From positions 16,849 through 80,848 of the forward strand of contig JAGMCT010000012.1 in assembly GCA_023129075.1 (NCBI GenBank): 64,000 bases of DNA, given 5' to 3'. Below, piece by piece: positions 31,529 to 62,646 of this stretch. The notes below the pieces were generated by a model. That model ran no database searches and was not told the DNA's origin. It saw only the letters and a list, made by a program, of their open reading frames with translations. The stretch comes from Microcaldota archaeon. GTDB lineage: Archaea; Micrarchaeota; Micrarchaeia; Anstonellales; Bilamarchaeaceae. Made by a program: the position numbers and the translations under genes. How positions within the stretch are numbered: position 1 is the first letter of the stretch; each line of letters starts with the position of its first letter.

Positions 31529-31723
31529 ATGACAGAAGGAACAGTAAAATTTTATAACGACATGAAAAAATTCGGTTTTATTGCCGGAGACGACGGAAAA
31601 GAGTATTTCGTACACGAGACTGGACTCAAGGAGGGAACATCCCTTGCTGAGGGTGACAAGGTTAAATTTGAAGTCGTAGAAGGAGACAAAGGACCAAAAG
31701 CAGAACAAGTTGAAAAAATCTGA
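31529..31723 (+). CDS. Cold-shock domain protein (copy 1)
   Basis: 64 residues, a single cold-shock domain. The RNA-binding motifs K-K-F-G-F-I (RNP1) and Y-F-V-H (RNP2) are present in the usual order after M-T-E-G-T-V-K-F-Y. Such proteins bind single-stranded RNA or DNA and act as RNA chaperones. They are common in bacteria and patchy in archaea. A near-identical copy lies 800 bp downstream, with only four substitutions (K14H, T31S, L39I, A40G). Confidence 0.93.
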   Translation: MTEGTVKFYNDMKKFGFIAGDDGKEYFVHETGLKEGTSLAEGDKVKFEVVEGDKGPKAEQVEKI

Positions 31724-32329: not shown

Positions 32330-32524
32330 ATGACAGAAGGAACAGTAAAATTTTATAACGACATGAAACACTTCGGTTTTATTGCCGGAGACGACGGAAA
32401 AGAGTATTTCGTACACGAGAGCGGACTCAAAGAAGGAACATCCATCGGCGAAGGTGACAAAGTTAAATTTGAAGTTGTAGAAGGAGACAAAGGACCAAAA
32501 GCAGAACAAGTTGAAAAAATCTGA
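32330..32524 (+). CDS. Cold-shock domain protein (copy 2)
   Basis: 64 residues, differing from copy 1 at four positions, including His for Lys in the RNP1 region (K-H-F-G-F-I). RNP1 and RNP2 are intact, so it should still bind single-stranded nucleic acid. Promoter, GGTGA leader and T-rich tail are shared with copy 1, so a segment of about 310 bp was duplicated with its control elements. Confidence 0.93.
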   Translation: MTEGTVKFYNDMKHFGFIAGDDGKEYFVHESGLKEGTSIGEGDKVKFEVVEGDKGPKAEQVEKI

Positions 32525-32669
32525 TTTTTTTATGATTTTTTAATTTATTCTTTCTTTTTTTATTCTTTTTTTCTATTTTTTATAATTTCTTCTTCTGAAT
32601 GTGTGGGGAAGGGAAAATTCATTGGTTATTGCCGAAAAGCTTAAATACCAAAATGCACTTTATAAGATA

Positions 32670-33182
32670 ATGACCTATGATAAGAACAAATTAGCGAACG
32701 TTCTGCATTATATTATTTCTGAAATTGGAGGCAAGTCCAATGTTGGAAAAACCGTTTTATACAAACTGCTTTACTTTGCTGATTTTGATTATTATGAACA
32801 TTATGAAGAAAAATTAACAGGAGAGCAATATAGAAAAATTGATAATGGTCCTGCTCCATCTCACTTTGATAAGATAATTGAACAACTAGAAAAAAAGGGA
32901 AAGATAGTAGAAGAAAAAATAGATCGTCCTGGTTTTACTCGATTTAGATATCTCTCATTCAAAAAACCAGATCTAAACAATTTAACTGCAAGGGAGATAA
33001 AAGTAATAGATGGAGTTATACAAAGACTAGGGGGGATGAATGCAAATAAAATAAGCGAATACTCCCATAGTGACATACCTTGGAAAGCTACAAAAGAGAA
33101 AGATATAATTGATTATGAACTCGTTTTTTACAGAGATGCTGCTTATTCAGTGAGGGAAGATGAAGGTGGAAATTCAGATTGA
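32670..33182 (+). CDS. Panacea-domain (DUF4065/SocA-like) antitoxin
   Basis: 170 residues from the ATG at 32670, supported by a GCTTAAATAC box at about 32639-32648; the longer frame begins upstream of that box. The Panacea signature is visible as K-T-V-L-Y-K-L-L-Y-F-A-D-F-D-Y-Y-E, L-T-G-E-Q-Y-R-K and G-P-A-P. Panacea proteins (SocA family) neutralise unrelated toxins in toxin-antitoxin systems. The next gene overlaps it by 23 nt and looks like a RelE-type toxin, so this is probably the antitoxin of that pair. Confidence 0.8.
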   Translation: MTYDKNKLANVLHYIISEIGGKSNVGKTVLYKLLYFADFDYYEHYEEKLTGEQYRKIDNGPAPSHFDKIIEQLEKKGKIVEEKIDRPGFTRFRYLSFKKPDLNNLTAREIKVIDGVIQRLGGMNANKISEYSHSDIPWKATKEKDIIDYELVFYRDAAYSVREDEGGNSD

Positions 33183-33522
33183 TGATTTAGGGGTCTCAGA
33201 ATTTCAAAAGGACCTCAAAAAACTTTGTAAAAAGTATAGAAATCTTCAAAAAGACTTTGAGCGTTTGAAGAGTGTTTTAAGAGTCGAACCAACTAACAAA
33301 GCAAATCGAGTAGATGAATTAGGAAAAAGCGTTGAAGTTCCAATATACAAAGTAAAAAAATTTCGTTCTACTGATTTTAAAGGAAAAGGAAATAAAAGCG
33401 GTTTTCGGGTTATTTATGCATATGGTGAAGAGCAGGGGAAGATAATAATGATTCAAATTTACCATAAAAATAAAACCAAGGATTTAGATAGAGAAAGAGT
33501 ATATACATATTTTAAACGATAA
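33160..33522 (+). CDS. RelE/HigB-like toxin
   Basis: 120 residues. It has the RelE/ParE-superfamily layout: an N-terminal strand (V-E-I-Q-I-D-D), a helical hairpin with L-K-K-L-C-K-K-Y, and a beta core with a basic finish, I-Y-K-V-K-K-F-R-S-T-D-F, G-F-R-V-I-Y-A-Y and M-I-Q-I-Y-H-K. Members cut ribosome-bound mRNA or bind gyrase. The ATG lies inside the Panacea gene (23-nt overlap), so the proteins are made together. Catalytic residues cannot be assigned with certainty in this diverse family. Confidence 0.72.
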   Translation: MKVEIQIDDLGVSEFQKDLKKLCKKYRNLQKDFERLKSVLRVEPTNKANRVDELGKSVEVPIYKVKKFRSTDFKGKGNKSGFRVIYAYGEEQGKIIMIQIYHKNKTKDLDRERVYTYFKR

Positions 33523-33582: not shown

Positions 33583-34257
33583 ATGCCTCTTAAAGCAATC
33601 CTCTTTGACCTGGATAATACCCTTATAGATTTCATGAAATTCAAAAAAGAAACCTCAAAAGCAGCTGCAAAAGCCATGATTTTTCACGGCCTTCCTTCTG
33701 ATGAAAAGACCATTTACAAGAGAATCTTCCAGATTTACGACGAATACGGCATAGAATACCAGAAAACCTTTTTCCGGGTAATAACACCCTTTAAATTAGA
33801 GATAAACAAGGCAGAGAGAATACAACAAGCAGCCATTCTTGCCTACTTAAAGAAGAAGTTCTCTGTGCTTAAGCCGTATGCCTCTGTAAAACCTATTTTA
33901 AGGCGTTTAAGGAAAAAATACAAATTAGCCATAGTTACTGATGCCCCAAGGAATAAAGCATGGCAGAGGCTTGTTTTATGCGGTCTGGAGGATTATTTTG
34001 ACCTTGTTATAACCTATAATGATACTAAGGAGAAGAAACCTTCCTCGAAACCATTCAAAAAGGCCCTTTCCTCTCTGAAATTAAAGCCCTCTGAGATTCT
34101 TTTCATCGGAGATAATCCCGGAAGAGACGTAAAAGGGGCAAAATCCCTTGGAATGAAAACAGCTCTTGCTTTTTACGGCTTAACAAGAGGTAAATCCAGG
34201 GTAAAACCTGATTATATTTTAAAGAGGTTTGAGGATATTCTGAAGGTGGTCAAATAA
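33583..34257 (+). CDS. HAD-superfamily hydrolase
   Basis: 224 residues. Motif I is F-D-L-D-N-T-L-I-D, motif II I-V-T-D-A-P-R, and motifs III/IV are K-K-P-S and F-I-G-D-N-P-G-R-D-V-K-G-A, the complete HAD phosphatase set, with a helical cap between motifs I and II. The substrate is unknown; small-molecule phosphate ester hydrolysis is likely. A TTTTTAAATA box lies about 25 nt before the ATG. Confidence 0.88.
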   Translation: MPLKAILFDLDNTLIDFMKFKKETSKAAAKAMIFHGLPSDEKTIYKRIFQIYDEYGIEYQKTFFRVITPFKLEINKAERIQQAAILAYLKKKFSVLKPYASVKPILRRLRKKYKLAIVTDAPRNKAWQRLVLCGLEDYFDLVITYNDTKEKKPSSKPFKKALSSLKLKPSEILFIGDNPGRDVKGAKSLGMKTALAFYGLTRGKSRVKPDYILKRFEDILKVVK

Positions 34258-34333
34258 GCAACCTTCCCGGCTTTCTTTGTGTCTGTATTTCATTATAAAT
34301 AAATCTTTCTTGATTAAGCTGGGTTCCAAAAAG

Positions 34334-35905
34334 CTATTTTTTAGAATATAATACTACAGAAGGGTCTCCAAGTAAAATATTCCACCCTGAACCTCCTGTT
34401 TTCTTCATATCATAATTTTTATAATATGATTCTCCAACCGTATGTGAGTCAAATAAAAGTTCATAAAACACTTTAGAATCTGCAGGAGTTGCAACTATGA
34501 CCGGGCCTTTCTCTGATTTGATTAGATGTTCAGAAAATGAATCTTCATCCCTTTCAAAAAAACTTCCTACCATACAGGCCTTTACTTCAAAAAGAGGTAT
34601 TATTTCCTTAAAAACCATGTCCTCCTTACATATTGGTCCCCTGGGGAATATACAATTATAGCTTCCATGGGAATGTGCAATAACAAATCTTTTTTTAGAA
34701 ATCAATTCTTCAAGTATATCTTCCCTATCAGTACCATCACCATATTGAACAAAATCAAAATTAGAAGGTATTTCATCTTTTCTGTCATCAATCTCTTCTT
34801 CGCTCAAACCCTCCGTGTTTTCCATATATGTTACATGGATATCTGAGGGTACTGACGGAAACATATAATAGGTACCACAATTACAAGACCAACGCTCTTC
34901 AGGTAAATTAAGAGTTCTACAAGGTCTAGCAGAGGATGCAATTATTAACATTTCTTTAACAATTTCAAGGTTTTTTGTTTTTTCAATAATCTTTAAAAGT
35001 TCTTCATTGGTCCTCACCGGCCACCTTCCCAAATAGATTTCTAATCCTTTTTTATCTTTTATTACTTCATCCTCTTCATAAAACCCATTACCATTTGTAT
35101 CCCATTCATCTAAATCCGCATAGAATATGTCCAAGCCAGAAGAAAAGTAAACTGGATATTCATATGTTTTACCTTCTATGCTACCACTTGGCTCTATTTT
35201 CCTTAGATAATAACCTGTAGGCACATTCCAGCTGTTATCTAGGTTATAACTGTCCAGAAATCGTTTTATTGCTTTTTCAGGTGTATCTTCAACTACAATA
35301 GCATATGTAAATGGTTCTGAAAGTGGTTCTACTTTAGTGTCTCCTATAAGTAAAACATATTTGATTCCGTTTTTATTATAATAATTTCTTAGAGCACCCT
35401 TTATTTTTTCAGCCAAATGTTCTCCCTCATAATTCTCTGCAATATATTCCAATGTTAAAACCCCCACCTCAAAACCGAATTCATTTTTTTTCCATTGAAT
35501 AAATTCTTGCAAAGAGCCTAAAAATAGAGGTCTGGTAACAATAATAAAATCCAGTTTTTCATTATAACATTCTTCATTCAAACAAGAAGACAGTTCTCGA
35601 AAACAAGTGTTATTTGTACATACGTAGCCTTCATCACAAGGAGGATTATTATATTCACATCCTGATCTTAGAATACACATATTATTAAGGCACCGATAAT
35701 TTTCAGCGCAAGAAGGGTTACTATAAGCACAACCAATTTCCTCTTCTTCAATATTGATTTCATTATCTTCAACTGAAGGATATTCAGAAAGGTTGCTTAC
35801 GATTGTTTCATTAGAATACTCATACTCCTCTAATGGTCGTTGGATACAACCACTAAAGACTAACAGTACAATAAATAATCCAAAATATAACCTGTATTTT
35901 ATCAC
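34334..35905 (-). CDS. Gingipain-like (C25) peptidase lipoprotein
   Basis: About 523 residues from the GTG at 35905; a TATA-like AGTATTTAATTG at 35927-35938 fits this start, and the TTG at 35923 would lie too close. The N-terminus has a lipoprotein signal with lipobox V-F-S-G-C. Two C-x-x-x-Y-x-C modules (about residues 60-95) follow, then the C25 domain: V-L-L-I-G-D, I-A-H-S-H-G-S (His413), V-K-A-C-M-V-G (Cys444) and the closing L-L-G-D-P-S-V-V-L-Y. Gingipain relatives are secreted cysteine peptidases, so this one probably degrades protein outside the cell. Confidence 0.85.
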   Translation of the reverse strand: MIKYRLYFGLFIVLLVFSGCIQRPLEEYEYSNETIVSNLSEYPSVEDNEINIEEEEIGCAYSNPSCAENYRCLNNMCILRSGCEYNNPPCDEGYVCTNNTCFRELSSCLNEECYNEKLDFIIVTRPLFLGSLQEFIQWKKNEFGFEVGVLTLEYIAENYEGEHLAEKIKGALRNYYNKNGIKYVLLIGDTKVEPLSEPFTYAIVVEDTPEKAIKRFLDSYNLDNSWNVPTGYYLRKIEPSGSIEGKTYEYPVYFSSGLDIFYADLDEWDTNGNGFYEEDEVIKDKKGLEIYLGRWPVRTNEELLKIIEKTKNLEIVKEMLIIASSARPCRTLNLPEERWSCNCGTYYMFPSVPSDIHVTYMENTEGLSEEEIDDRKDEIPSNFDFVQYGDGTDREDILEELISKKRFVIAHSHGSYNCIFPRGPICKEDMVFKEIIPLFEVKACMVGSFFERDEDSFSEHLIKSEKGPVIVATPADSKVFYELLFDSHTVGESYYKNYDMKKTGGSGWNILLGDPSVVLYSKK

Positions 35906-35967
35906 GTTTTTATTTTCAAACAAAACAATTAAATACTTTAATAGTACAATAAATTTGGTGAAATAGA

Positions 35968-36129
35968 ATGGCTAAACCTATTAGGGCTACCCCTACCTTA
36001 CGGGGGGAAGATGCCATAAAATTTGTAAAGGAGACGATTAAAGAAGAAGAAACCCCTTCTAAAAATAGGGTAAGGACCATTCTAAGAGCTAGAAGAAACT
36101 TTTCTTATTTTGAGCAATTCATTTCATAA
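35968..36129 (+). CDS. Small antitoxin-like protein (53 aa)
   Basis: 53 residues, starting M-A-K-P-I-R-A-T-P-T-L-R-G-E-D-A-I-K-F-V-K and ending with an Arg-rich helix. A GGTGA site lies upstream. The opening P-I-x-x-T-P-x-L-x-G-x-x-A-x-x-F is familiar from very short archaeal and bacterial proteins that precede toxins or acetyltransferases, so an antitoxin or DNA-binding role is suggested. No obvious toxin follows within the same unit; the next gene is a DUF4143 ATPase with its own promoter. Confidence 0.6.
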   Translation: MAKPIRATPTLRGEDAIKFVKETIKEEETPSKNRVRTILRARRNFSYFEQFIS

Positions 36130-36186
36130 TTGAGGATATTGCCCAATTTCTAGGATAATACTCAAAAATAGAACAAAATTGAGTAC

Positions 36187-36238
36187 TCCATTCCCCAAAA
36201 ATGTAACAGTTTTGTGTATTCCATTCCCCAAAAATGTA
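36187..36238 (+). repeat. Two direct 19-bp repeats upstream of the ATPase gene
   Basis: An identical 19-bp sequence, T-CCATTCCCCAAAAATGTA, occurs at 36187-36205 and 36220-36238, 33 bp apart (about three helical turns). The second copy touches the GTATTTAAAAAT promoter box (about 36238-36249) of the DUF4143 ATPase. Position and spacing suggest an operator for a dimeric regulator, possibly the ATPase system itself or the 53-residue protein encoded just upstream. Confidence 0.7.
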
Positions 36239-36271
36239 GTATTTAAAAATATTACTGATAATAAAAACATC

Positions 36272-37585
36272 ATGGCAGAGATAAGCGAACTTATGGAAAT
36301 GTTCAATCCATGGTGGAAAACTAAGGAATATTCTACAGAACTTAAAAAAAGAGAAATTTTGAAAACACTGAATGAATACATTAAGGAAAAGCAGGTAATA
36401 ACCCTTAACGGCATGAGGAGAGCAGGAAAAACAAGTATAATGCGTCTTCTTATAGAAAAATTGGTAAAGGAAGAACCCCCTCAGAACATTCTTTTCTTCT
36501 CTTTTGACGGCTTAAAAAGAGACAGCACATACCTTGAGGAGGTTATAAAAGAATATGAACGGCTGGTTGCTCCTAAAGGAAAAAAATATATATTTCTTGA
36601 TGAAATACAATTTATAGATGGGTGGGAGTGGATAATAAAGAGATTTTATGATTCAGGAGACTATAAATTCATTCTTTCAGGTTCTTCCTCATTTTCCATT
36701 CTTAAAAGTGCAGGAAAGGCGCTTGTTGGAAGAACCTTTGATTTTCATGTAACCCCTCTTAAATTATCAGAACTCTTCTATTTTAAGAATAAAAAGATAC
36801 CAACAATAACCCTTGATGAAATAATAAGCGAAAGCATTTCCAATCTGGAGAAAAGATTCTTTATTTATAGAAAAGCGGCAGAAACAGAAACTGCAGAATA
36901 TCTTATGAATGGCGGACTGCCCGAAATAATATCCATTGAACATGAAAAAGCGGTTAGGTATGTAAGAGACAGCGTAGTTGATAAGGTTATTTTCAGAGAT
37001 ATAACAGAAACATTTGAGGTTGTTGAACCAACCAAGATAAAGGAATTGTTTTATTCGCTTTTAGAACACCCTGGAGCCCTAATTGAAAGCAACACCTTTC
37101 TTTCAAAGTTGGACATATCCAGAAAAACCCTATCAAAATACTTGGAATACCTAAAACTTTCATATCTTATAAAAGAGGTTCATAATTATACAGGAAGAGA
37201 ATCCAAATCTTTAAGAAAAACAAAGAGATATTATGTTGAGGATAATTCTCTTTTGATGTATCTGAAAAAGCCCCCCGAAATAGGAAGATTTGCTGAGAAT
37301 GCAGCAGTCCTAGCGTGTGATGCAAAATATTTCTGGAGAGAAAGGAATAAAGAAGTAGATATTATTCTTCAATCCAATGGAAATATTCTTCCTGCTGAAG
37401 TAAAATATACAAATAACATATCCAATAAGGACTTACAGGGATTATTCTCATTTGCTTCCAGGTTCAATATAAACAATGCTCTTGTGGTAACAAAAGATAT
37501 CTTATCTGATGAAGAAAGAGAATACTACGGCCAGAAACTCAAAATAAGGTTTATTCCTTTATGGATGTTTTTGTTGCAGAGTTGA
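36272..37585 (+). CDS. AAA-type ATPase with DUF4143 domain
   Basis: 437 residues from the ATG at 36272, 27 nt after the TTTAAAAAT box; the longer frame reads through the promoter and repeats. Walker A is G-M-R-R-A-G-K-T (residues 47-54), Walker B Y-I-F-L-D-E (Asp110, Glu111), with S-G-S-S-S-F after it. The C-terminal half has R-E-R-N-K-E-V-D-I-I-L and I-L-P-A-E-V-K-Y, a PD-(D/E)xK-like fold seen in the DUF4143 family. Many archaea carry many copies; they are suspected mobile or regulatory ATPases. It is followed after 4 nt by the MBL nuclease. Confidence 0.85.
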   Translation: MAEISELMEMFNPWWKTKEYSTELKKREILKTLNEYIKEKQVITLNGMRRAGKTSIMRLLIEKLVKEEPPQNILFFSFDGLKRDSTYLEEVIKEYERLVAPKGKKYIFLDEIQFIDGWEWIIKRFYDSGDYKFILSGSSSFSILKSAGKALVGRTFDFHVTPLKLSELFYFKNKKIPTITLDEIISESISNLEKRFFIYRKAAETETAEYLMNGGLPEIISIEHEKAVRYVRDSVVDKVIFRDITETFEVVEPTKIKELFYSLLEHPGALIESNTFLSKLDISRKTLSKYLEYLKLSYLIKEVHNYTGRESKSLRKTKRYYVEDNSLLMYLKKPPEIGRFAENAAVLACDAKYFWRERNKEVDIILQSNGNILPAEVKYTNNISNKDLQGLFSFASRFNINNALVVTKDILSDEEREYYGQKLKIRFIPLWMFLLQS

Positions 37586-37589
37586 TAAT

Positions 37590-38948
37590 ATGATTTCTAT
37601 TACACTTTACGGAGGAGCAAACGAGATAGGGGGAAGCAAAATCCTTCTGGAAGACAAGGATGCAAAAATTTATCTGGATTTTGGAGAGCCGTTTGGTTTT
37701 GGAGAGGATTACTTCTATGACTGGCTGAAACCAAGAAAGGTAAATGGACTTGAGGTTTATTTTGAACTAGGTTTAATGCCTAAAATAAAAAAAATATACA
37801 ATGAAAAACACCTGGAACTTACTGACTTAAAATATGAAAAGCCGGATATTGATGCGGTTTTTATTTCTCATTCCCACTCAGACCATACTGGACACCTAAA
37901 ATTTCTTGATGAAATAATCCCTGTCTATTTGGGCCATGGAACAAAGGCTGTCATGGACGCCTATAAACATCTTTATCCTCAATTTACTGACCATGGAAAA
38001 CATGAGGCTATCCATACATTCAAATCAGGAGACAAAATAAAGGTAAAGCACCTGACTATTGAACCAATCCATGTAGAGCATTCAGTTCCAGGAGCTTACG
38101 GCTTTATTATTCATACTTCCAAAGGCCCCCTTGTTTATACAGGGGACTTTAGAATGCACGGTCCAAAGGCCTCGATGACAAAGGAGTTTATAGAGAAGGC
38201 TTCTTTATGCAACCCTTATGCTATGCTCTGTGAAGGAACCAGAATGACTCCTGATGCTGAACATAATTATACAGAAAAGGAGGTGGAAGAAAGAGCATCT
38301 TCAATTATTAAGGATTCAAAAGGCCTTGTTCTTGCTTATTTTGCAATGACAAATGTTGACAGGTTTATGAGCTTTTACCATGCTGCTGTAAAAAATAACA
38401 GGATTTTGGTTGTTGATACTCGGTTGGCCTATATTCTAGACTGCTTTAAAGAGAAGATTTCTGCTCTTCCTGATGTTTTTTCTGATGAAAATATAAGAGT
38501 TTACTATAGATTATCTAAAAGCTGTACCTTTTGTGATAAGGATTATTATCCGTGGGAAAGAGAATATTTTTCTAAGAAAATTACATATGAAGAGATTAAT
38601 AAGAATCCTCTGAAGTATGTGATTCATTCGGGTTTTAATAAACTAATGGAATTGATTTATCTCAAACCAGAGAATGCTGATTTTATCTATTCTTCTTCAG
38701 AGCATTTCCTTGAAGGGGAGGATAATGAAGAGATGAGAACAGTTTTGGAGAACTGGATGGGGCATTTTAATATTAAATTTCATAAAACTCATTGTTCAGG
38801 GCATGCTTCTAAAAATGATTTAGTTGGGGCAATTAAGAAGATAAATCCCAATATTTTGATTCCTGTTCATACACAGAATTCTGAAGAGTTTAAGAAACAT
38901 CATTCTAATGTAATTATTCCGGAGAAAGGGAAAAGAATTGAGATTTAG
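37590..38948 (+). CDS. Metallo-beta-lactamase-fold RNase/exonuclease
   Basis: 452 residues. The metal site is S-H-S-H-S-D-H (His94, His96, Asp98, His99), followed by V-E-H-S-V-P-G-A-Y-G and T-G-D-F-R, then C-S-G-H-A-S and I-P-V-H-T-Q at the C-terminus. This order (MBL, then RNA-specific RMMBL motif) fits the RNase J/CPSF nuclease family. The C-terminal part differs from RNase J (Cys-rich segment C-T-F-C-D-K-D), so the exact subtype is unclear. Its position between an ATPase and a restriction enzyme suggests possible involvement in genome or RNA defence. Confidence 0.8.
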   Translation: MISITLYGGANEIGGSKILLEDKDAKIYLDFGEPFGFGEDYFYDWLKPRKVNGLEVYFELGLMPKIKKIYNEKHLELTDLKYEKPDIDAVFISHSHSDHTGHLKFLDEIIPVYLGHGTKAVMDAYKHLYPQFTDHGKHEAIHTFKSGDKIKVKHLTIEPIHVEHSVPGAYGFIIHTSKGPLVYTGDFRMHGPKASMTKEFIEKASLCNPYAMLCEGTRMTPDAEHNYTEKEVEERASSIIKDSKGLVLAYFAMTNVDRFMSFYHAAVKNNRILVVDTRLAYILDCFKEKISALPDVFSDENIRVYYRLSKSCTFCDKDYYPWEREYFSKKITYEEINKNPLKYVIHSGFNKLMELIYLKPENADFIYSSSEHFLEGEDNEEMRTVLENWMGHFNIKFHKTHCSGHASKNDLVGAIKKINPNILIPVHTQNSEEFKKHHSNVIIPEKGKRIEI

Positions 38949-39010
38949 GCGGAAATGATGAAAATAGGTTCCTATAAAGCTTTTTAAAGGATTTCTTATA
39001 AATTGATTCC

Positions 39011-41716
39011 ATGGCTATTTCTAAAGAAGAGGGGAAGGAAAGAATTGCTAAATTAGTAGAACAGTTTAGGAAAGATTTAGAATCCGGCAAGGCAAAAAGA
39101 TATAAGGAAGAAGAAACAAAAACCCGTTACATACAACCTTTTTTTGAAGCCCTTGGTTGGGATTTCAGTGCTGCTTCTGATGAATTCACAATGGAAGAGA
39201 ACATATCTAAAAAAAGAGTAGATTATGGTTTCAGAATCAATGGGATTCCTAAGTTTTTTGTTGAAGCTAAGAGAGTTAAAGAAAATCTGAATAATCGCAA
39301 ATTTATTGAACAGGCATTAGATTATTCCTGGCATAAAGGATGTACCTGGGCGGTTCTTACTGATTTTGAAGGTTTAAAGGTCTTTAATGCAGAATATAAA
39401 TCAAAAAACATCTTTCAAAATCTATTCTTTGGGCTTTCTTGGGAGAATTATCTGAATCCAGATTCTTTTGACAGGATATGGATGCTCAGTAGAGAAAGTA
39501 TGGAAAAAGGAATTATGGATAAAGAAGCTGAAAAATGGGGCAAGAAGATAAAGAAGGGAGCAGTCAAGAAAAAACCTGTAATGAAGCAACTTTTGGATGA
39601 TTTACTTTATTGGAGAAAAAAATTAAGGAACAACATAAAGAAGAATAACAAAAATCTCAGTGAATATGAACTCGGAGAAACAATTCAGAGAATAATAGAC
39701 AGGCTTATTTTCATAAAAACCTGTGAAGATAGGGGAATTGAATCCAATAGGCTTGTTGAATTGTATAGAACCTTTGATTCCAAGAGAAGAATTAATGTAA
39801 AAAGAGAGTTGAATAAGATATATGAATATTACAACGCAACTTATAACAGCAAGTTATTTGCAAGGCATTTGTGCGAGGATGTTAAGATTGATGATAAGGT
39901 TGTTGTAGAAGTTATTAAGGGATTAGATAAAACAAGAGATAATTCTATTAACTATGATTTTTCTGCTATAGATGCTGACGTTCTTGGAAGTATTTATGAA
40001 CAATATTTGGGGCATGTTATCTCTAAGAAAGGAGATTCTAAGGGGAAGAGAAAACAACAGGGAATTTATTACACTCCTTCTTATATCGTAGATTATATTG
40101 TTAAGAATACGGTTGGAGAGTATATTAAAGGGAAAAGAAAGGACACTGTCAAGAATATTAAGATTCTGGACCCTGCATGCGGTTCTGGCTCATTTTTACT
40201 TCGTGCTTTTGATGAATTAGATGGATATTGGAAGAGAAATTTAAAGGATGCTTATAAACAGACAAAATTAGGGGGGGAAACTCCAATTACTAAAAAGATT
40301 GAGATTCTTAAGAATAATATTTATGGGGTGGACTTGGATGAAAAGGCAACTGAAATTGCTCGTTTGAATTTACTTTTGAAAGCTGCTGAGAAGAGGCATT
40401 TGTTGCCTGCTTTGGATAAAAATATTAGAATTGGGAATTCTCTGATTGATTCTGAGGAAGTTGCCGGGGAAAGGGCATTTAATTGGGAAGAAAAGTTTCC
40501 AGATATAATCCAATATGACAAAACTGGAAACCTGAAAAAAGATTATGGTTTTGATATTGTTATTGGAAATCCTCCTTATGTTAGGCCACATAATTTAGAT
40601 GAAGATACTAAGAGGCATCTGTGGAAAAGAAGTAAAGTTATGAAAGCAAAGGGAGATTTATATGCTGCCTTTATTGAAAAGGGGATTGAATTATTGCAAG
40701 AAAAAGGAATTATCTCATTTATTGTGCCACACACTTGGTTATTTTTGGAGAGTTTTGAAGATTTAAGAGAATACGTTTTAGATACTACCAAGATTAAATC
40801 AATAACTCTAGCGCCACGTAAAGTATTCCAAGATGCAACGGTTGAAACATTAGTTTTTGTTTTTGAGAAATGTGATTCAGAGAATCTAAGAAAAAAGAAC
40901 GATATAAAAATAAGGAGAATAACAGATACTAGAAAAATAGAAGATATCGGGAAAAAGAAGCAAGAAGATTATTATTCAAATAGGATATTTGAGATTAATG
41001 TTGGGGAAGACAGCAAAGTATTATCTAAAATAGAGCAGAATACTAAAAAGCTAAAAGAGAATGTGGAATTCTTCTACGGATTAAAAACTGCTGACGATAA
41101 AAAATTTCTTACCTTTGACCCAAAAAATAAAATAGAATATAAAAAACTGTTGAGAAGAAGAAATATCGATCGATATTCTACTAATTTCAAAGGAGAGTAT
41201 GTGTATTACCGGCCCGATTTAATGAAAAAAAACAAAAAGACAGCAAGACCAGGAGAACCAAGTAGATTTGAAGGTGCAAAAATTGTGATTATGGATATTG
41301 CCAAAAAATTAGTTTGTACCTACGATGATGAAAACTATTTCATAAAAGATGCCCTGATTCTGAAAGAAAAAAATGAAAATGTCGACTTAAAGTATCTAGT
41401 AACTTTAATCAATTCTCGTCTCTTAAATTACTATTATAAACAGAAATACAAAGTTCTAAGTGTTGCAAAGAACGCATTCTTGGAGCTACCAATAAAAATA
41501 GTGCCTAGATCTCAGCAAGAATCATTTATCTCTCTTGTAAACAAAATGCTTTCTCTCAACAGACACATTAACAAAATTGAAGGTAAACAAACAGATGAAA
41601 AAATAAGATTAGAAAAAGAAATAGAAAAAACAGATAAACAGATTGACGAGCTTGTCTATAAAATTTACAGAATAACAGAAAAAGAGAAAAAAATAATTGA
41701 GGAGAGTTTGAAATGA
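39011..41716 (+). CDS. Type IIG restriction-modification enzyme (single chain)
   Basis: 901 residues. An N-terminal PD-(D/E)xK nuclease (V-D-Y-G-F-R-I-N-G-I-P-K-F-F-V-E-A-K, Asp71, Glu85, Lys87) is joined through a helical region to an adenine methyltransferase with D-P-A-C-G-S-G-S-F (residues 387-395) and I-G-N-P-P-Y (Asn520). A C-terminal target-recognition region follows with coiled-coil ends. The enzyme would cut and methylate one sequence. No separate specificity subunit lies nearby. A CTTTTTAAAGG box 25-30 nt upstream supports the start. Confidence 0.9.
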   Translation: MAISKEEGKERIAKLVEQFRKDLESGKAKRYKEEETKTRYIQPFFEALGWDFSAASDEFTMEENISKKRVDYGFRINGIPKFFVEAKRVKENLNNRKFIEQALDYSWHKGCTWAVLTDFEGLKVFNAEYKSKNIFQNLFFGLSWENYLNPDSFDRIWMLSRESMEKGIMDKEAEKWGKKIKKGAVKKKPVMKQLLDDLLYWRKKLRNNIKKNNKNLSEYELGETIQRIIDRLIFIKTCEDRGIESNRLVELYRTFDSKRRINVKRELNKIYEYYNATYNSKLFARHLCEDVKIDDKVVVEVIKGLDKTRDNSINYDFSAIDADVLGSIYEQYLGHVISKKGDSKGKRKQQGIYYTPSYIVDYIVKNTVGEYIKGKRKDTVKNIKILDPACGSGSFLLRAFDELDGYWKRNLKDAYKQTKLGGETPITKKIEILKNNIYGVDLDEKATEIARLNLLLKAAEKRHLLPALDKNIRIGNSLIDSEEVAGERAFNWEEKFPDIIQYDKTGNLKKDYGFDIVIGNPPYVRPHNLDEDTKRHLWKRSKVMKAKGDLYAAFIEKGIELLQEKGIISFIVPHTWLFLESFEDLREYVLDTTKIKSITLAPRKVFQDATVETLVFVFEKCDSENLRKKNDIKIRRITDTRKIEDIGKKKQEDYYSNRIFEINVGEDSKVLSKIEQNTKKLKENVEFFYGLKTADDKKFLTFDPKNKIEYKKLLRRRNIDRYSTNFKGEYVYYRPDLMKKNKKTARPGEPSRFEGAKIVIMDIAKKLVCTYDDENYFIKDALILKEKNENVDLKYLVTLINSRLLNYYYKQKYKVLSVAKNAFLELPIKIVPRSQQESFISLVNKMLSLNRHINKIEGKQTDEKIRLEKEIEKTDKQIDELVYKIYRITEKEKKIIEESLK

Positions 41717-41726
41717 GGTGCATATT

Positions 41727-43208
41727 TTGCGTGTAATCTTCGATACGAATATATTAATTGATGTTGAAGACCATAAAGAATTGAACCCCACTTTAGCGGA
41801 ATTATTAACTTTACTCGAGGAACATGAACATACAATACTTGTACATCCCGCTTCTATGGTTGACTTGGAAAAGGACAAGAATACTATAAGAAAAAAAATC
41901 GTCTTATCCAAAATTAAAGGTTATCCAATTTTGAAATCCGCCCCCACTCCAAATCTGGAATTTCTAAAAAATATTGGAAATTCAAAAAAATTAAACAACG
42001 TTGTAGATAATAGAATACTATATGCCGTTTATAGTAATAGTGTTCATTTTTTGATAACCCAAGACCGTGGACTCCATAAAAAAGCAATGAAAATGGGTAT
42101 AAATGATAGGGTTTTTGATATCTTATCTGCTTACGATTATTTCCGTAACCTTCATTTTAGGAGATGTTCAGATCACACTTTATTAAAAAAAGAACCTATG
42201 AGTAAACTGGATATTAATGATCCTTTTTTTGATTACTTCAAAAGGATATATCCTGGATTTAAAAAATGGTTCAAGGAAAGAGCTCAAGAAGGAAGAGAAT
42301 GTCGGGTTTATTATTTTAATGGTAGGATTGGGGCACTTATGATTATAAAAGAGGAGGATGAACAGATTAATGTGAATCCCCCCCTCCCAAAGAAAAAGAG
42401 ATTAAAGATATGCACTTTAAAATCTGCTGTTCATGGATCTAAATTAGGCGAATTGTTCTTAAAAATAGCCTTCAAATTCTGTCTAGATAACCATATCTCA
42501 GAAGTATATTTAACCCATTTTCCCGAAGAAGAGGAGGGAGAGGATCCATTAGTTTCTCTTTTGAATGGATATGGTTTCAAGGAGATTGGAAAAAAGATAG
42601 ATAATGGGGAATCGGTCTATCTAAAAAATTTCGACGACCAGGAAAATCTACACAGTACATGTCCTTTGAAAAGCTATCCTTTTTACAAAGAAGATGAAAG
42701 CAAGAAGAGGTTCCTAGTTCCGGTTAGTCCACAGTACCACAATCGACTTTTTCCAGATTATCAAAAAAGACAACAAACAATTACAGAATATATACATATA
42801 AATATTGTTGGGAATGCAATCAAAAAGGCATATTTGTGTCATTCAAAAATAAAAAAGATAAAAAAAGGAGACATTTTGCTTTTTTATAGATCACAAGACC
42901 AAAAAAGGATTACTTCTGTTGGTATTGTTGAGAATACTTTTAGGACACAGAACCCCAATACGATAATGGCCAAAATCGGAAGTAGAACGGTTTATTCTGA
43001 AACAGAGATAAAAGAAATGGCGAAGAAACCAGTTTTGATCTTACTCTTTGTCCACAATTTCAACCTTCCAGAACCAGTATCTTTAGTTTATCTCAAACAA
43101 GAAAACATCCTAAAAGGGTTCTTACAGTCTATACGTGAGGTTAGTTATGACGATTATAAAAAAGTAACAAGAAAAGGTGGTTTATATGGATTTGATATTA
43201 TCAATTAG
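41727..43208 (+). CDS. PIN-GNAT-PUA-like fusion protein
   Basis: 493 residues from the TTG at 41727 (M-R-V-I-F-D-T-N), which has GAGGTG six nt before it; the GTG at 41718 overlaps that site. A PIN nuclease domain (residues 1-135) with D-T-N (Asp6), T-Q-D-R and the expected acidic residues is followed by a GNAT-like acetyltransferase region (about 160-290: L-K-S-A-V-H-G-S-K-L-G-E-L-F-L-K and the Y-G-F-K-E-I-G-K-K-I end), then an EVE/ASCH-like domain with I-K-K-G-D-I-L-L-F-Y and V-G-I-V-E. It begins 10 nt after the RM gene and overlaps the ASCH gene. Confidence 0.7.
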   Translation: MRVIFDTNILIDVEDHKELNPTLAELLTLLEEHEHTILVHPASMVDLEKDKNTIRKKIVLSKIKGYPILKSAPTPNLEFLKNIGNSKKLNNVVDNRILYAVYSNSVHFLITQDRGLHKKAMKMGINDRVFDILSAYDYFRNLHFRRCSDHTLLKKEPMSKLDINDPFFDYFKRIYPGFKKWFKERAQEGRECRVYYFNGRIGALMIIKEEDEQINVNPPLPKKKRLKICTLKSAVHGSKLGELFLKIAFKFCLDNHISEVYLTHFPEEEEGEDPLVSLLNGYGFKEIGKKIDNGESVYLKNFDDQENLHSTCPLKSYPFYKEDESKKRFLVPVSPQYHNRLFPDYQKRQQTITEYIHINIVGNAIKKAYLCHSKIKKIKKGDILLFYRSQDQKRITSVGIVENTFRTQNPNTIMAKIGSRTVYSETEIKEMAKKPVLILLFVHNFNLPEPVSLVYLKQENILKGFLQSIREVSYDDYKKVTRKGGLYGFDIIN

Positions 43209-43620
43209 ACCAAAATATGCAAGCTCGATATTTGAGGGTACTAAAAAGTACGAGTTCAGAAAATTCTTTCCTGTTAACCGGAGAATAAATAAAGTGTACA
43301 TTTATGTAACTTCTCCAGTTAAAAAGATAACTGGATTCTTCGTTATTGAAAAAATAATTAAGGATGAACCAAAGGAAATATGGAAAAGGTTCAGAAAGTA
43401 TTCAGGTTTGGATAAGAGAACATTCTTTGAATATTTCAACCGTTATGAAATTGGTTATGCGATCAAAATAAAAGAAGTTTATAAATGTACTGATGTAATT
43501 AATCCGTTTATTTCTTTTGAAAATTTTAACCCCCCTCAATCTTTCTGTTATATCGATCCTAAAATGAAGGGTTGTTTGGTAAATAAACCTTCGGAAATCA
43601 AAAACTTTTGTAGGTGTTAA
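43186..43620 (+). CDS. ASCH-domain protein
   Basis: 144 residues from the ATG at 43186, which has AGGTGG six nt upstream; the GTG at 43177 is less favoured. It begins L-I-L-S-I-R-P-K-Y-A-S-S-I-F-E-G-T-K-K-Y-E-F-R-K, the ASCH signature, and continues with V-Y-I-Y-V-T-S-P-V and G-Y-A-I-K-I. ASCH domains are PUA-like folds that bind RNA or modified nucleic acid. Its start overlaps the end of the PIN-GNAT gene by 23 nt, so the two are likely functional partners. Confidence 0.78.
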   Translation: MDLILSIRPKYASSIFEGTKKYEFRKFFPVNRRINKVYIYVTSPVKKITGFFVIEKIIKDEPKEIWKRFRKYSGLDKRTFFEYFNRYEIGYAIKIKEVYKCTDVINPFISFENFNPPQSFCYIDPKMKGCLVNKPSEIKNFCRC

Positions 43621-43697
43621 GATGGAAGTAACCTATCAAAACGAAAAACAGTTTTTTCTGGAAGATAACTGGATACTTCTCAAACTGAGGTAATACA

Positions 43698-44747
43698 ATG
43701 GTAGAATATAAAAATCAACACTATGTCCCTCAATTTTACTTTAGATTATTTTCAAAAGACAATAGAACAATTAATTTATTTAATCTAAAAAACAAGAAAA
43801 TAATTCAAAATGCAAAAATTTCAAATTTATGTTCAAAAGATTATTTTTATTCATATGATGGTGAATTGGAGGGTATTTTTTCTGGATTGGAAGGTCAATT
43901 TTCTAGTGCATTAAATAAATTAGTTCAAAAAATCGATTATACTAACTTGAGTTCTGATAAGAAACATTTTGTTCTTTCTTTCCTTTGTTTTCAACATAGA
44001 CGCACTTTGCAGGAGAGAGAAAAGATGGTCGGACTATGTGAAAACTTAATAAAAATTGTCTTAGAAAAATACCTTAAAACTAAGGGTTACACTAAAGAGT
44101 ATGCCCCCACCCCAGTTGTTGATGAGAGAAATCTCCACACGTTTCAAATGTTAGTTAGTCTCTTCGAACCAATTTTGATAGGAGACTTGGCTCCGTTGTT
44201 TCTATTAAACAAAACAGAGAATAAGTTTATTTTTAGTGATGCTCCAGTAATCTTCCACAATACCTTTTTTAATAAGTTAAAAAATATGGGGACCTGTGGT
44301 TGTGCGAATAAAGGATTGCAAATCTTTTGTCCTGTTGATCCAAATATTATGCTGGTTTTATATGACCCAAATCTATACAAAATGCAAAATAGTTACATAA
44401 GTACAATAGAAATTTTCAATTCCAGAGACATTGATTCTCTAAATTCTTTACAAATGTTATCTTGTTTGGATAATGTTTTTTTCTCGAATAACTCCCTAGA
44501 CTACATTAAAGATTTGTTTGAATATAATAAAAATAACATAATCAAAAAAGAATATCAGTATAGAGAAATCAAAGCAAATACAAGGTCTGGTCGTAAGGAG
44601 GTAATACATCATTTTCAACCAAATATCCCTTATAATCTAAAATTATCTTTTTTAAAAATTAACCCAATTAAAGAAACACCAGACATAAGAGATAAAAAAC
44701 GAATGGCATTTTTTGGTAAATTAATAAATAATAAAATTAATTTGTAG
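43698..44747 (+). CDS. DUF4238 protein
   Basis: 349 residues. It starts N-Q-H-Y-V-P-Q-F-Y-F-R-L-F-S, the DUF4238 signature, with L-C-S-K-D-Y-F-Y, Q-H-R-R-T and F-I-F-S-D-A-P-V-I-F following. The family is enriched near restriction and other defence genes but its biochemistry is not established. The AT content and codon usage (frequent AAA, AAT, TTA) look slightly higher than in core genes. It follows the ASCH gene by about 77 bp, which contain only a GAGGT site for this gene. Confidence 0.72.
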   Translation: MVEYKNQHYVPQFYFRLFSKDNRTINLFNLKNKKIIQNAKISNLCSKDYFYSYDGELEGIFSGLEGQFSSALNKLVQKIDYTNLSSDKKHFVLSFLCFQHRRTLQEREKMVGLCENLIKIVLEKYLKTKGYTKEYAPTPVVDERNLHTFQMLVSLFEPILIGDLAPLFLLNKTENKFIFSDAPVIFHNTFFNKLKNMGTCGCANKGLQIFCPVDPNIMLVLYDPNLYKMQNSYISTIEIFNSRDIDSLNSLQMLSCLDNVFFSNNSLDYIKDLFEYNKNNIIKKEYQYREIKANTRSGRKEVIHHFQPNIPYNLKLSFLKINPIKETPDIRDKKRMAFFGKLINNKINL

Positions 44748-44873
44748 TTTTTTAAGGAATCTAAATCATTATTGGAAAATCTTAGAATTTTGTAGATGAT
44801 AAGAAGTTGGTATAATAATTCGTTGAATTGGAACGTATAAACCTTTTAATAGCTTACCTTGTATATTATTCCA

Positions 44874-45791
44874 ATGAAGGTAAGGGATGATGCTCCCACC
44901 CTATCTAAAAACTTGATAAAAATGAAAAGGGACAAAGATTCACACCAAAGGATACATATTCTTGAACTTCTTAAAGAAAACTATTTGGAAAATCCCTTTA
45001 ATTATGTGACAAGTAAAAGTATTAGCGAAGAATTGGGCAATCCACCAAAATTTGATAGTTATGTAAAATATCTAGAAGAAAAAGGATATATAAACGCAAT
45101 GAGATCTCTTGGTACTACAAGTTGCATGATGCAAATTAATGCCTACGGAATAGATTTTCTCGAGAAGGAAGTTAGCAGAAAAGGTAAAGATCAAGAACCA
45201 TTAGAAATAAAGAAGAGTTATTCCATAGATATAGAAAAATATCTTCTTGATATATCTGAAAAAAAAGCAGTTATGGCGGGGGTAATCATAGCAATCCTTC
45301 TTACGTTATTTCTCACAGACTCAACTAGACAGTTTCTGTTTACCACTTTGGTAATACAACTTGTGGGAATTCCAATTATGTTAAATCTTGGCCTTATCTT
45401 AATAGTGTTTGCGTTTTATTTGGGCATATACATAATTCTTTACTGTTATGAAATTTCAACATTTGTTGATGAAAGAACATTTGTAGGTGCATATAGGGAT
45501 TCGATATTTTTTACAAGCATAATTTTTTTGTTATTAACTGCCATGATTTTCATAATAATTCTTATCTTATCACTAGAAGCTATAAAAGAGATGTTTATGA
45601 TTTTCATTGGGATGTTAATCTTATTGCCAGTAATTTTCCTATTGAACTCAACAAGATTTGGTAAAGAGTTCTTGGTAGGAACAATAACAGTTATTTTAGA
45701 TCCTATTAAGAGGGCTAAAAAATTACTTAATATTCTGTGCTCTTGGCTTGAAGAAATGAAAGGTGGTGCTAATGAAAAAAAGAAATCTTGA
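44874..45791 (+). CDS. Winged-helix protein with C-terminal membrane segments
   Basis: 305 residues from the ATG at 44874, set by a CTTTTAATA box at about 44841-44849; the longer frame has no signal. The N-terminal region is a winged helix (S-K-S-I-S-E-E-L-G-N, V-K-Y-L-E-E-K-G-Y-I), followed by a linker and four or five membrane helices (about 135-160, 170-195, 215-240, 242-262). The topology is the reverse of the regulator at 19518. It ends with K-K-K-S and overlaps a 34-residue ORF. A role in sensing the membrane is inferred. Confidence 0.65.
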   Translation: MKVRDDAPTLSKNLIKMKRDKDSHQRIHILELLKENYLENPFNYVTSKSISEELGNPPKFDSYVKYLEEKGYINAMRSLGTTSCMMQINAYGIDFLEKEVSRKGKDQEPLEIKKSYSIDIEKYLLDISEKKAVMAGVIIAILLTLFLTDSTRQFLFTTLVIQLVGIPIMLNLGLILIVFAFYLGIYIILYCYEISTFVDERTFVGAYRDSIFFTSIIFLLLTAMIFIIILILSLEAIKEMFMIFIGMLILLPVIFLLNSTRFGKEFLVGTITVILDPIKRAKKLLNILCSWLEEMKGGANEKKKS

Positions 45792-45876
45792 GGCGTTAGT
45801 TACTCTAGCATATACGATCATAGGTATAACATTATTGTTGTTTATTTTAAGTCTCATACTTTCTTTAATAACATGA
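45772..45876 (+). CDS. Mini membrane protein (34 aa)
   Basis: 34 residues: a short basic start M-K-K-R-N-L-E, then one hydrophobic helix (V-T-L-A-Y-T-I-I-G-I-T and onward) to the end. AGGTGGTG lies about 6 nt before the ATG and the frame overlaps the end of the winged-helix gene by 20 nt. The layout (tiny membrane peptide coupled to a membrane regulator) suggests a partner, toxin-like or otherwise. Too short for certainty. Confidence 0.5.
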   Translation: MKKRNLEALVTLAYTIIGITLLLFILSLILSLIT

Positions 45877-46446
45877 TGTGTCCTTCTTAATACCTTCTCA
45901 GTAAACCAATCTCTCCAAATATACCCTTACAGTAAACCATTTCCCCAATTCCAGGCCATTTTCTCATCTTTTTACCTATTTCCAACCCAGAACCATGCTT
46001 AAGTTTTCGACTTTCCCCAAATCACATCATATCAGTAAACCAACTTGCAAAAAACCATAAACCAAAAAATAAATGAGTTTACCATAACAGTAACCAAACC
46101 ATGTTCCAGTTTACTATAATGGTATATTCTAATACTCTTTTGGATATTCCAGAAAAATTTTAAGAAAAATTTAGCATAAAAATAAAGCCTGGAAGTAGGG
46201 TTATGGGAAGAGAATATATCAAAAAATAAGAATTCAGACGTAAGGAAAGGGCAGTCTTATGTCTATTCTAAATATCTATTAGAAAATATAGAAAAATATA
46301 AGAAAAAATAAAAACAAAGAAAAAATTAGAAAAATTTAAACAAAGACAATTGAAATCCTAAAATAATAAAATTGGAAAAAAACAATAGAATATAGTAATT
46401 CTAAATATTTGTTGGAAAATATAAAAGAATAAAAGAAATAAAAAAA
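45877..46446. other. 570-bp non-coding stretch with a repeated CAGTAAACCA motif
   Basis: No plausible gene. Three direct copies of CAGTAAACCA occur at 45899-45908, 45930-45939 and 46033-46042, a degenerate fourth near 46088 (CAGTAACCA), and inverted forms GTTTACCAT at 46077 and AGTTTACTAT at 46108. The second half is extremely A-rich, with a roughly 40-bp direct repeat beginning ATTCTAAATAT at 46265 and 46398. It separates plus-strand from minus-strand genes at their 3' ends, so a promoter role is unlikely. A replication-, partition- or regulator-binding region, or decayed DNA, is possible. Confidence 0.5.
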
Positions 46447-56586: not shown

Positions 56587-56817
56587 GCCAAGGAGGTTGA
56601 ATAACCTGCGGTTATAGCCCTCCATGACTCATTTTATTCGCCAAGGAGGAGATTTGAACTCCTAAGCCCCGAAGGGCACCAGATGTCTGCCATGCTTCAT
56701 CTCCATACATCGGAGCTGTTGCATGCCTCAAGTCTGGCGCGTTACCGGATTCCGCCACCTTGGCATGAGTGTAACGAATGCCGAGGGCTATCACCAAAAA
56801 GGTGATTCAACCTTGGC
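56587..56817. repeat. Paired flanks around tRNA-Ser, able to fold as a four-way junction
   Basis: The two flanks of tRNA-Ser pair contiguously. Outer stem 56587-56602 with 56805-56817 (13 bp, three-base bulge GAG), hairpin 56603-56613 (AACC, three-base loop, GGTT) on one side and hairpin 56792-56804 (CACC, five A, GGTG) on the other, inner stem 56614-56622 with 56783-56791 (9 bp), a further 6-bp stem 56627-56632 with 56765-56770, then the tRNA acceptor stem. The outer ends also repeat the first bases of the tRNA acceptor stem and its leader (CCTTGGCATGA), so they may come from duplication of tRNA ends. Confidence 0.75.
56639..56764 (-). tRNA. tRNA-Ser (UGA) with intron
   Basis: Acceptor stem G-C-C-A-A-G-G pairs with C-C-U-U-G-G-C, discriminator G73 (as expected for Ser), D-stem of three pairs, anticodon stem CCAGA/UCUGG with loop C-U-UGA-G, long variable arm (type II tRNA), and the T-loop UUCAAAU. 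The anticodon UGA reads UCA. A 42-nt intron lies after position 37, with the stem CATGC/GCATG beside the expected splice bulges; the central helix of the BHB is weak. The mature tRNA is about 84 nt. It is divergent from the ribosomal operon. Confidence 0.88.
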
Positions 56818-62471: not shown

Positions 62472-62593
62472 GCAGGGGTGGCGGAGCGGTCAAACGCGCC
62501 AGACTCAAGAGAAACCTTCTTTAGGGTTGCCAAAAGAAATTTTGAGAAATCTGGTGACTTAGAGTCTACGAGGGTTCGAATCCCTTCCCCTGC
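62472..62593 (+). tRNA. tRNA-Leu (CAA) with intron
   Basis: Acceptor GCAGGGG/CCCCUGC with discriminator A, anticodon stem CCAGA/UCUGG with loop C-U-CAA-G, long variable arm and GGGUUCGAAUCCC T-arm. Anticodon CAA reads UUG. A 39-nt intron (62510-62548) lies after position 37; the BHB central helix CUCA/UGAG and 3-nt bulges AGA and AAA are well formed. Mature length about 83 nt. Confidence 0.92.
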
Positions 62594-62646
62594 ACTTTCT
62601 TTTCCTTTCTTTTAGAAAATCAGAGAAACCTCAGATGGCTCGTTAG

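Follow-up and report, generated by a model that had tools for sequence, protein, structure and literature searches.

A 64,000-nt stretch of contig JAGMCT010000012.1 from a Microcaldota archaeon (GenBank GCA_023129075.1; 0.99 Mb in 25 contigs), hereafter the window, carries a type IIG restriction-modification (RM) gene followed by genes for a PIN-GNAT-EVE protein and an ASCH protein. We propose that these three genes probably form an operon in which the RM enzyme is coupled to an RNA-directed, GevTA-like toxin–antitoxin module, a reading that we hold with moderate confidence on the sequence evidence set out below. RM-coupled modules of this kind are already described by Bell et al. 2020 (PMC7641849; PDC-M11), and the window offers a compact archaeal example in which a probable toxin–antitoxin pair seems to share its operon with a restriction enzyme. 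Among named organisms its nearest relatives are Candidatus Micrarchaeota: L080, the same contig as G242:C8 of the same family, and L082, Candidatus Fermentimicrarchaeum limneticum.

The RM gene is intact. Its product matches Eco57I (3.5e-41), TaqI_C (2.6e-15) and HSDR_N (1.7e-7) in Pfam and REase_MTase_IIG (2.4e-114) in PADLOC. A PD-(D/E)XK-like nuclease (VDYGF...VEAK, residues about 70–87) occupies the N-terminus, followed by a methyltransferase of the N6-adenine type (DPACGSG at 387, NPPY at 520) and a TaqI-like specificity domain. With predicted nuclease, N6-methyltransferase and specificity domain, and their motifs, in a single chain, the enzyme belongs to type IIG.

About 10 nt separate the RM stop codon from the likely start of the PIN-GNAT-EVE gene, whose product matches the PADLOC candidate PDC-M11A (1.8e-149); the ASCH protein matches PDC-M11B (1.7e-43). 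An earlier note, made from the sequence alone, had described PUA/ASCH-type nucleic-acid readers here. The ASCH assignment stands, while the domain called PUA is more exactly EVE. The PIN acids D9, D97 and D116 are conserved, as is the GNAT loop GxKxGE (G240-x-K-x-G244-E245, invariant in homologue alignment A1), and the AlphaFold2 model of the protein is fairly confident (pLDDT 84.7), with Foldseek matches to GNATs and ZmASCH. With PIN, GNAT and EVE domains predicted on a single chain, an adjoining ASCH gene and an RM gene close by, the pair qualifies as a PDC-M11 module. A literature search on PDC-M11 returned nothing relevant.

The pairing of the two genes is strict. ASCH lies directly downstream on the same strand in all 39 archaeal PIN-GNAT-EVE loci examined. 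In the window the genes overlap by 23 nt, counted from ATG 43186, and the same overlap from the ATG is found in the GevT/GevA pair of an Escherichia phage and in provirus psiM100. With the conserved S-I-K-P motif of ASCH as reference point, the stop of the upstream gene falls on the identical nucleotide in 45 loci, spanning this Micrarchaeon, an archaeal virus and Escherichia phages; because that position recurs so widely, the overlap is far beyond chance. Homologous pairs occur in Micrarchaeota, Methanoperedens, haloarchaeal, proteobacterial and actinobacterial plasmids, Paenibacillus, provirus psiM100 and Escherichia phages, and the long PIN-GNAT-EVE protein was present in 34 of the 345 genomes of the Methanoperedens phylum sample. 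The reverse order, with ASCH upstream and at times as a longer protein, occurs in some loci of alphaproteobacteria and viruses. Relatives in genome contigs were recovered with alignment A2; a scan with a single protein yielded none.

RM genes were detected near these loci with a few hand-made profiles. One lay within 6 kb of PIN-GNAT-EVE in 19 of 39 archaeal loci, against none of 20 control regions searched with the same profiles, and within the Methanoperedens phylum, taken without Micrarchaeota and L081, the counts were 14/32 and 0/20 (Fisher p = 3e-4). The overlap directly behind the RM gene, to which the earlier note drew attention, is real, ancient and RM-associated. The RM partners are of IIG, D12 and type I kinds: a 1031-aa IIG enzyme lies upstream of the pair in L021, a IIG fragment downstream in L022, a D12 methyltransferase and a 183-aa gene accompany it in L023, and in L081 it sits between hsdM/DUF1016 and hsdS. 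ASCH forms part of a 608–714-aa protein near hsdM in five loci, probably an ASCH-HsdS fusion, and such a fusion in Methanohalophilus is reported by Bell et al. (PMC7641849).

Two viral relatives bear on function. Escherichia phage PhiR47_2 (PV340567) has its homologues between cI and kil, and the record names them GevT toxin and GevA antitoxin. The rex exclusion genes of lambda occupy the same place. GevT/GevA share 31% (GNAT-EVE) and 41% (ASCH) identity with the window proteins, and gene order and the 23-nt overlap are identical; with homologous genes in the same order and the same overlap, the window pair is of GevTA type by sequence. Provirus psiM100 of Methanothermobacter carries a full PIN-GNAT-EVE/ASCH pair (ORFD/ORF5, 36% and 42% identity) with the same overlap, whereas the related psiM2 has the ASCH gene, 96% identical to that of psiM100, and of the toxin only a terminal stub of 43 aa that matches at 100% identity. 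A toxin–antitoxin pair tolerates loss of its toxin so long as the antitoxin stays, and psiM2 fits that pattern. In the phage collection ASCH was also present in all 16 records with GNAT-EVE, and a GNAT-EVE match was missing from at least 12 of the 28 records with ASCH. Counts of broken toxins against broken ASCH genes were set aside as too few and length-biased.

Separately, psiM2 and phages of Oenococcus and Streptococcus (H87-H91, H106-H109) were seen to carry GevA-like ASCH genes that have no GNAT-EVE gene as partner; these toxin-less genes are candidate counter-defence antitoxins.

In the mechanism that we envisage, the IIG enzyme would be the first line of defence and the pair the second. 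The fixed 23-nt overlap would couple translation of ASCH to that of the toxin, which ASCH would silence by binding it or, the folds of EVE and ASCH being sisters, by competing for a common RNA ligand. An infection that halts host gene expression or beats the RM enzyme would tip the balance towards the toxin; EVE would dock it on RNA, GNAT would transfer an acyl group and/or PIN would cut the RNA, and this attack would stop translation so that the virus is not propagated.

Several observations weigh against this proposal. GevT, unlike the window protein, lacks the N-terminal PIN domain, and a search of the available literature library found no GevTA paper, the toxin and antitoxin labels being record annotation. 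The psiM100 record labels its extra region an inserted fragment, and the direction of the change between psiM100 and psiM2 is our inference. Half of the archaeal loci had no detected RM gene nearby, which makes linkage to RM genes frequent but not a requirement. The pair could also be a modification reader or a regulator in place of a toxin system.

A reading role can be given a specific form, a type IV-like system in which EVE and ASCH would detect a modified base of viral DNA or RNA and PIN and GNAT would act on the nucleic acid so marked, covering viruses that escape restriction through modification. The EVE/ASCH superfamily includes modified-base readers, and Bell et al. (PMC7641849) propose such a role for RM-linked EVE/ASCH proteins. 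Sensing of modified nucleic acid, which the earlier note also suggested, is possible, being within the abilities of these domains, and the probable ASCH-HsdS joining suggests a DNA-reading role. The closest solved relative of the window ASCH protein is nevertheless ZmASCH (PDB 5GUQ/5GUS; E 2e-31, a relationship found by profile search only), which binds and cuts single-stranded RNA in vitro with the involvement of Y47, K53 and S128 (PMC5615036). All three have counterparts in the window protein (Y43, K49 and S122, numbered on the GTG-started ORF). Together with the fixed overlap and the psiM2 variant, which better suit a toxin–antitoxin pair, this leaves the type IV-like reading rather unlikely. 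We regard as improbable a second alternative, in which GNAT-EVE places an acetyl group on a base, or on a group bound to nucleic acid, to give a protective or toxic mark that ASCH reads, with the unit serving as a modification device and not as a toxin; the acetylation idea goes back to Iyer et al. 2013, whom Bell et al. (PMC7641849) cite for it. The well-modelled GNAT fold and its invariant loop would suit such a device; against it stand the intact nuclease acids of PIN and the toxin annotation of the phage homologue. For the toxin–antitoxin reading, the fixed overlap and the psiM2 variant yield a prediction that is clear and can be tested, in modules whose function has been an open question since 2013–2020.

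The core lies within a larger island. At 36.2–45.9 kb the window holds eight consecutive plus-strand open reading frames (ORFs), seven from the ORF list and a 34-aa ORF read from the sequence, in the order given in Table 1 from the AAA_14-DUF4143 ATPase onwards. The earlier note had correctly seen eight genes in one direction and took them for one extended defence system. Shared strand, close spacing and an island G+C of 30–34%, lower than most of the flanks (34–42%), are in keeping with that view, and the relative L022 has a HAD gene and a metallo-beta-lactamase-fold (MBL) gene next to an RM/PIN-GNAT-EVE/ASCH locus. The locus survey speaks strongly the other way: the ordered set does not co-occur, and the other archaeal PIN-GNAT-EVE loci examined are without DUF4238, membrane gene, ATPase and MBL, save for the MBL of L022, which carries both units and has its MBL in the opposite orientation. 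The DUF4238 gene (above the Pfam cut-off) and the membrane gene each turned up in a single one of 196 genomes from the phylum and are for this reason called passengers. The membrane gene has no match in Pfam, PADLOC or NCBIfam, and the regulatory role that the earlier note gave it finds no backing in a family assignment. A single eight-gene system is thus already mostly refuted, and we consider it highly improbable; the observation behind it was real and its interpretation half right.

Table 1. Coordinates of the island genes, the upstream HAD gene and the repeat before the ATPase gene.
Feature	Position	Strand	Basis and remarks
HAD phosphatase	33583..34257	+	HAD_2 4.1e-31; partner upstream of MBL, outside the coordinates of the earlier note
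Tandem direct repeat, 33 nt (79%)	36163..36228		5' of ATPase start; possible operator
AAA_14-DUF4143 ATPase (PDC-S01)	36273..37585	+	Pfam, PADLOC; probable start ATG 36273
RNase J-like metallo-beta-lactamase-fold hydrolase with RMMBL	37590..38948	+	Pfam, motifs, pairing with HAD in Micrarchaeota
Type IIG RM protein, 901 aa	39011..41716	+	Pfam, PADLOC, motifs
PIN-GNAT-EVE, predicted toxin	41727..43208	+	likely start TTG 41727; first ORF start GTG 41718
ASCH, predicted antitoxin	43186..43620	+	likely start ATG 43186; first ORF start GTG 43177
DUF4238 protein, passenger	43698..44747	+	Pfam 1.2e-36
Predicted multi-pass membrane protein, passenger, no family	44859..45791	+	sequence
34-aa hydrophobic ORF, doubtful gene	45773..45876	+	sequence; overlaps membrane gene

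The ATPase and MBL genes belong not to the RM/PIN-GNAT-EVE/ASCH core but to a separate HAD-cargo-MBL locus, a different and equally patchy defence hot spot. The ATPase matches AAA_14 (1.4e-30) and DUF4143 (4.9e-20) in Pfam and PDC-S01 in PADLOC (4.4e-66, qualifying under the criterion of that model), and its gene ends 4 nt before that of the MBL. The MBL has an RMMBL domain and the HxHxDH motif and aligns over its full length to the RNase J/EF2904 family structure PDB 2AZ4 (9e-29). A true RNase J was rejected, as the protein scores 96.7 against a family cut-off of 400 bits; it shares only the MBL/RMMBL core with curated RNase J, from which it also differs by its linkage, in Micrarchaeota, to HAD and defence genes. 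Membership of the MBL nuclease-protease pairs (PMC12799240) was likewise discarded: there is no adjoining trypsin-like protease fused to a defence enzyme, and the C25 protease nearby is on the other strand.

In the window and in at least 17 other loci of the same and sister Micrarchaeota families, an MBL gene lies downstream of a HAD gene, on the same strand and no more than 7 kb away. The order HAD-[variable cargo]-MBL is seen at 33583–38948 of the window and in L022, L055, L056, L057, L062, L063, L093, L100 and L103. The two genes touch directly in L056, L057, L100 and L103 and enclose cargo in L022, L055 and L062, where the cargo can overlap the HAD stop by 4 nt. This cargo is often nuclease-like (a PD-(D/E)XK-like protein, an EEP nuclease, an AbiEii-type nucleotidyltransferase, Mrr/DUF4268/RNA-ligase proteins); in the window it is the PDC-S01 ATPase. 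Seven MBL loci have a Csa3-like CARF-wHTH gene upstream on the opposite strand. Genes just 3' of MBL matched Shedu, a TIR-APAZ short-Argonaute partner or PDC-S27 in 3 of 10 cases against 0 of 10 control genes, a small sample partly chosen after some of the matches were known. RM genes were not significantly enriched at MBL loci (5/40 against 0/20 controls).

The HAD-MBL unit looks undescribed so far. We suggest, tentatively, that HAD-[swappable cargo]-MBL, in some cases with a CARF-wHTH regulator, may be an undescribed Micrarchaeota defence system or cassette platform, in which cargo endonucleases would cut, HAD would trim the ends and MBL would degrade; the window would then carry PDC-S01 cargo with the RM/toxin–antitoxin island stacked behind it. 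This locus is the less expected part of the analysis and gives searches for defence genes in DPANN archaea, for which few systems are known, a new point of anchorage.

Other MBL arrangements were noted. In L051 (553–6738) and L053 (6533–10974), tandem MBL 3'-end fragments that reach the stop codon or nearly so are interleaved with HAD and AAA_14 genes, including in L051 a homologue of the window ATPase; we read the fragments as traces of repeated cassette turnover. Contig breaks inside MBL genes were rejected as a sign of an active hot spot: by our own estimate, about 200 contig ends per 1.1 Mb would break roughly a quarter of 1.4-kb genes by chance. On Methanothermobacter tenebrarum plasmid pRMAS01 (L190) a NERD-like nuclease, an OGG-like glycosylase and an MBL occur together. 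A similar NERD/OGG/MBL trio may precede the MBL in L061, where a TIR-APAZ gene and then a 498-aa gene (possibly a short Argonaute) lie behind it.

Short direct repeats flank the island, with three copies of CAGTAAACCA at 45890–46042 and the tandem pair of Table 1 at the other end; these are possible operators. Between HAD and ATPase lies, on the minus strand, the C25 (gingipain-like) protease gene (34334–35923), with a lipoprotein-like signal. At 32601–33522 a Panacea (SocA-like) antitoxin gene overlaps by 23 nt a RelE/HigB-type-like gene (weak Gp49 match), and the two are probably a second toxin–antitoxin pair. Two near-identical 64-aa cold-shock-like proteins are encoded 0.8 kb apart at 31529–31723 and 32330–32524, and tRNA matches at 62472–62594 and 56639–56764 (123–126 nt), reported by Rfam and not by ARAGORN, are probably intron-containing tRNA genes.

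Among known systems, GevT/GevA, for all their likeness to the window pair, are found in a prophage immunity region and not beside an RM enzyme, and the psiM100 pair is borne by a provirus. The (PIN)-GNAT-EVE and ASCH modules of Bell et al. 2020 (PMC7641849) share with the window their architecture, two-gene order and proximity to RM genes. The available part of that paper gives type I RM partners and does not name Micrarchaeota, whereas the partner in the window is a single-gene IIG enzyme placed about 10 nt upstream of the pair.

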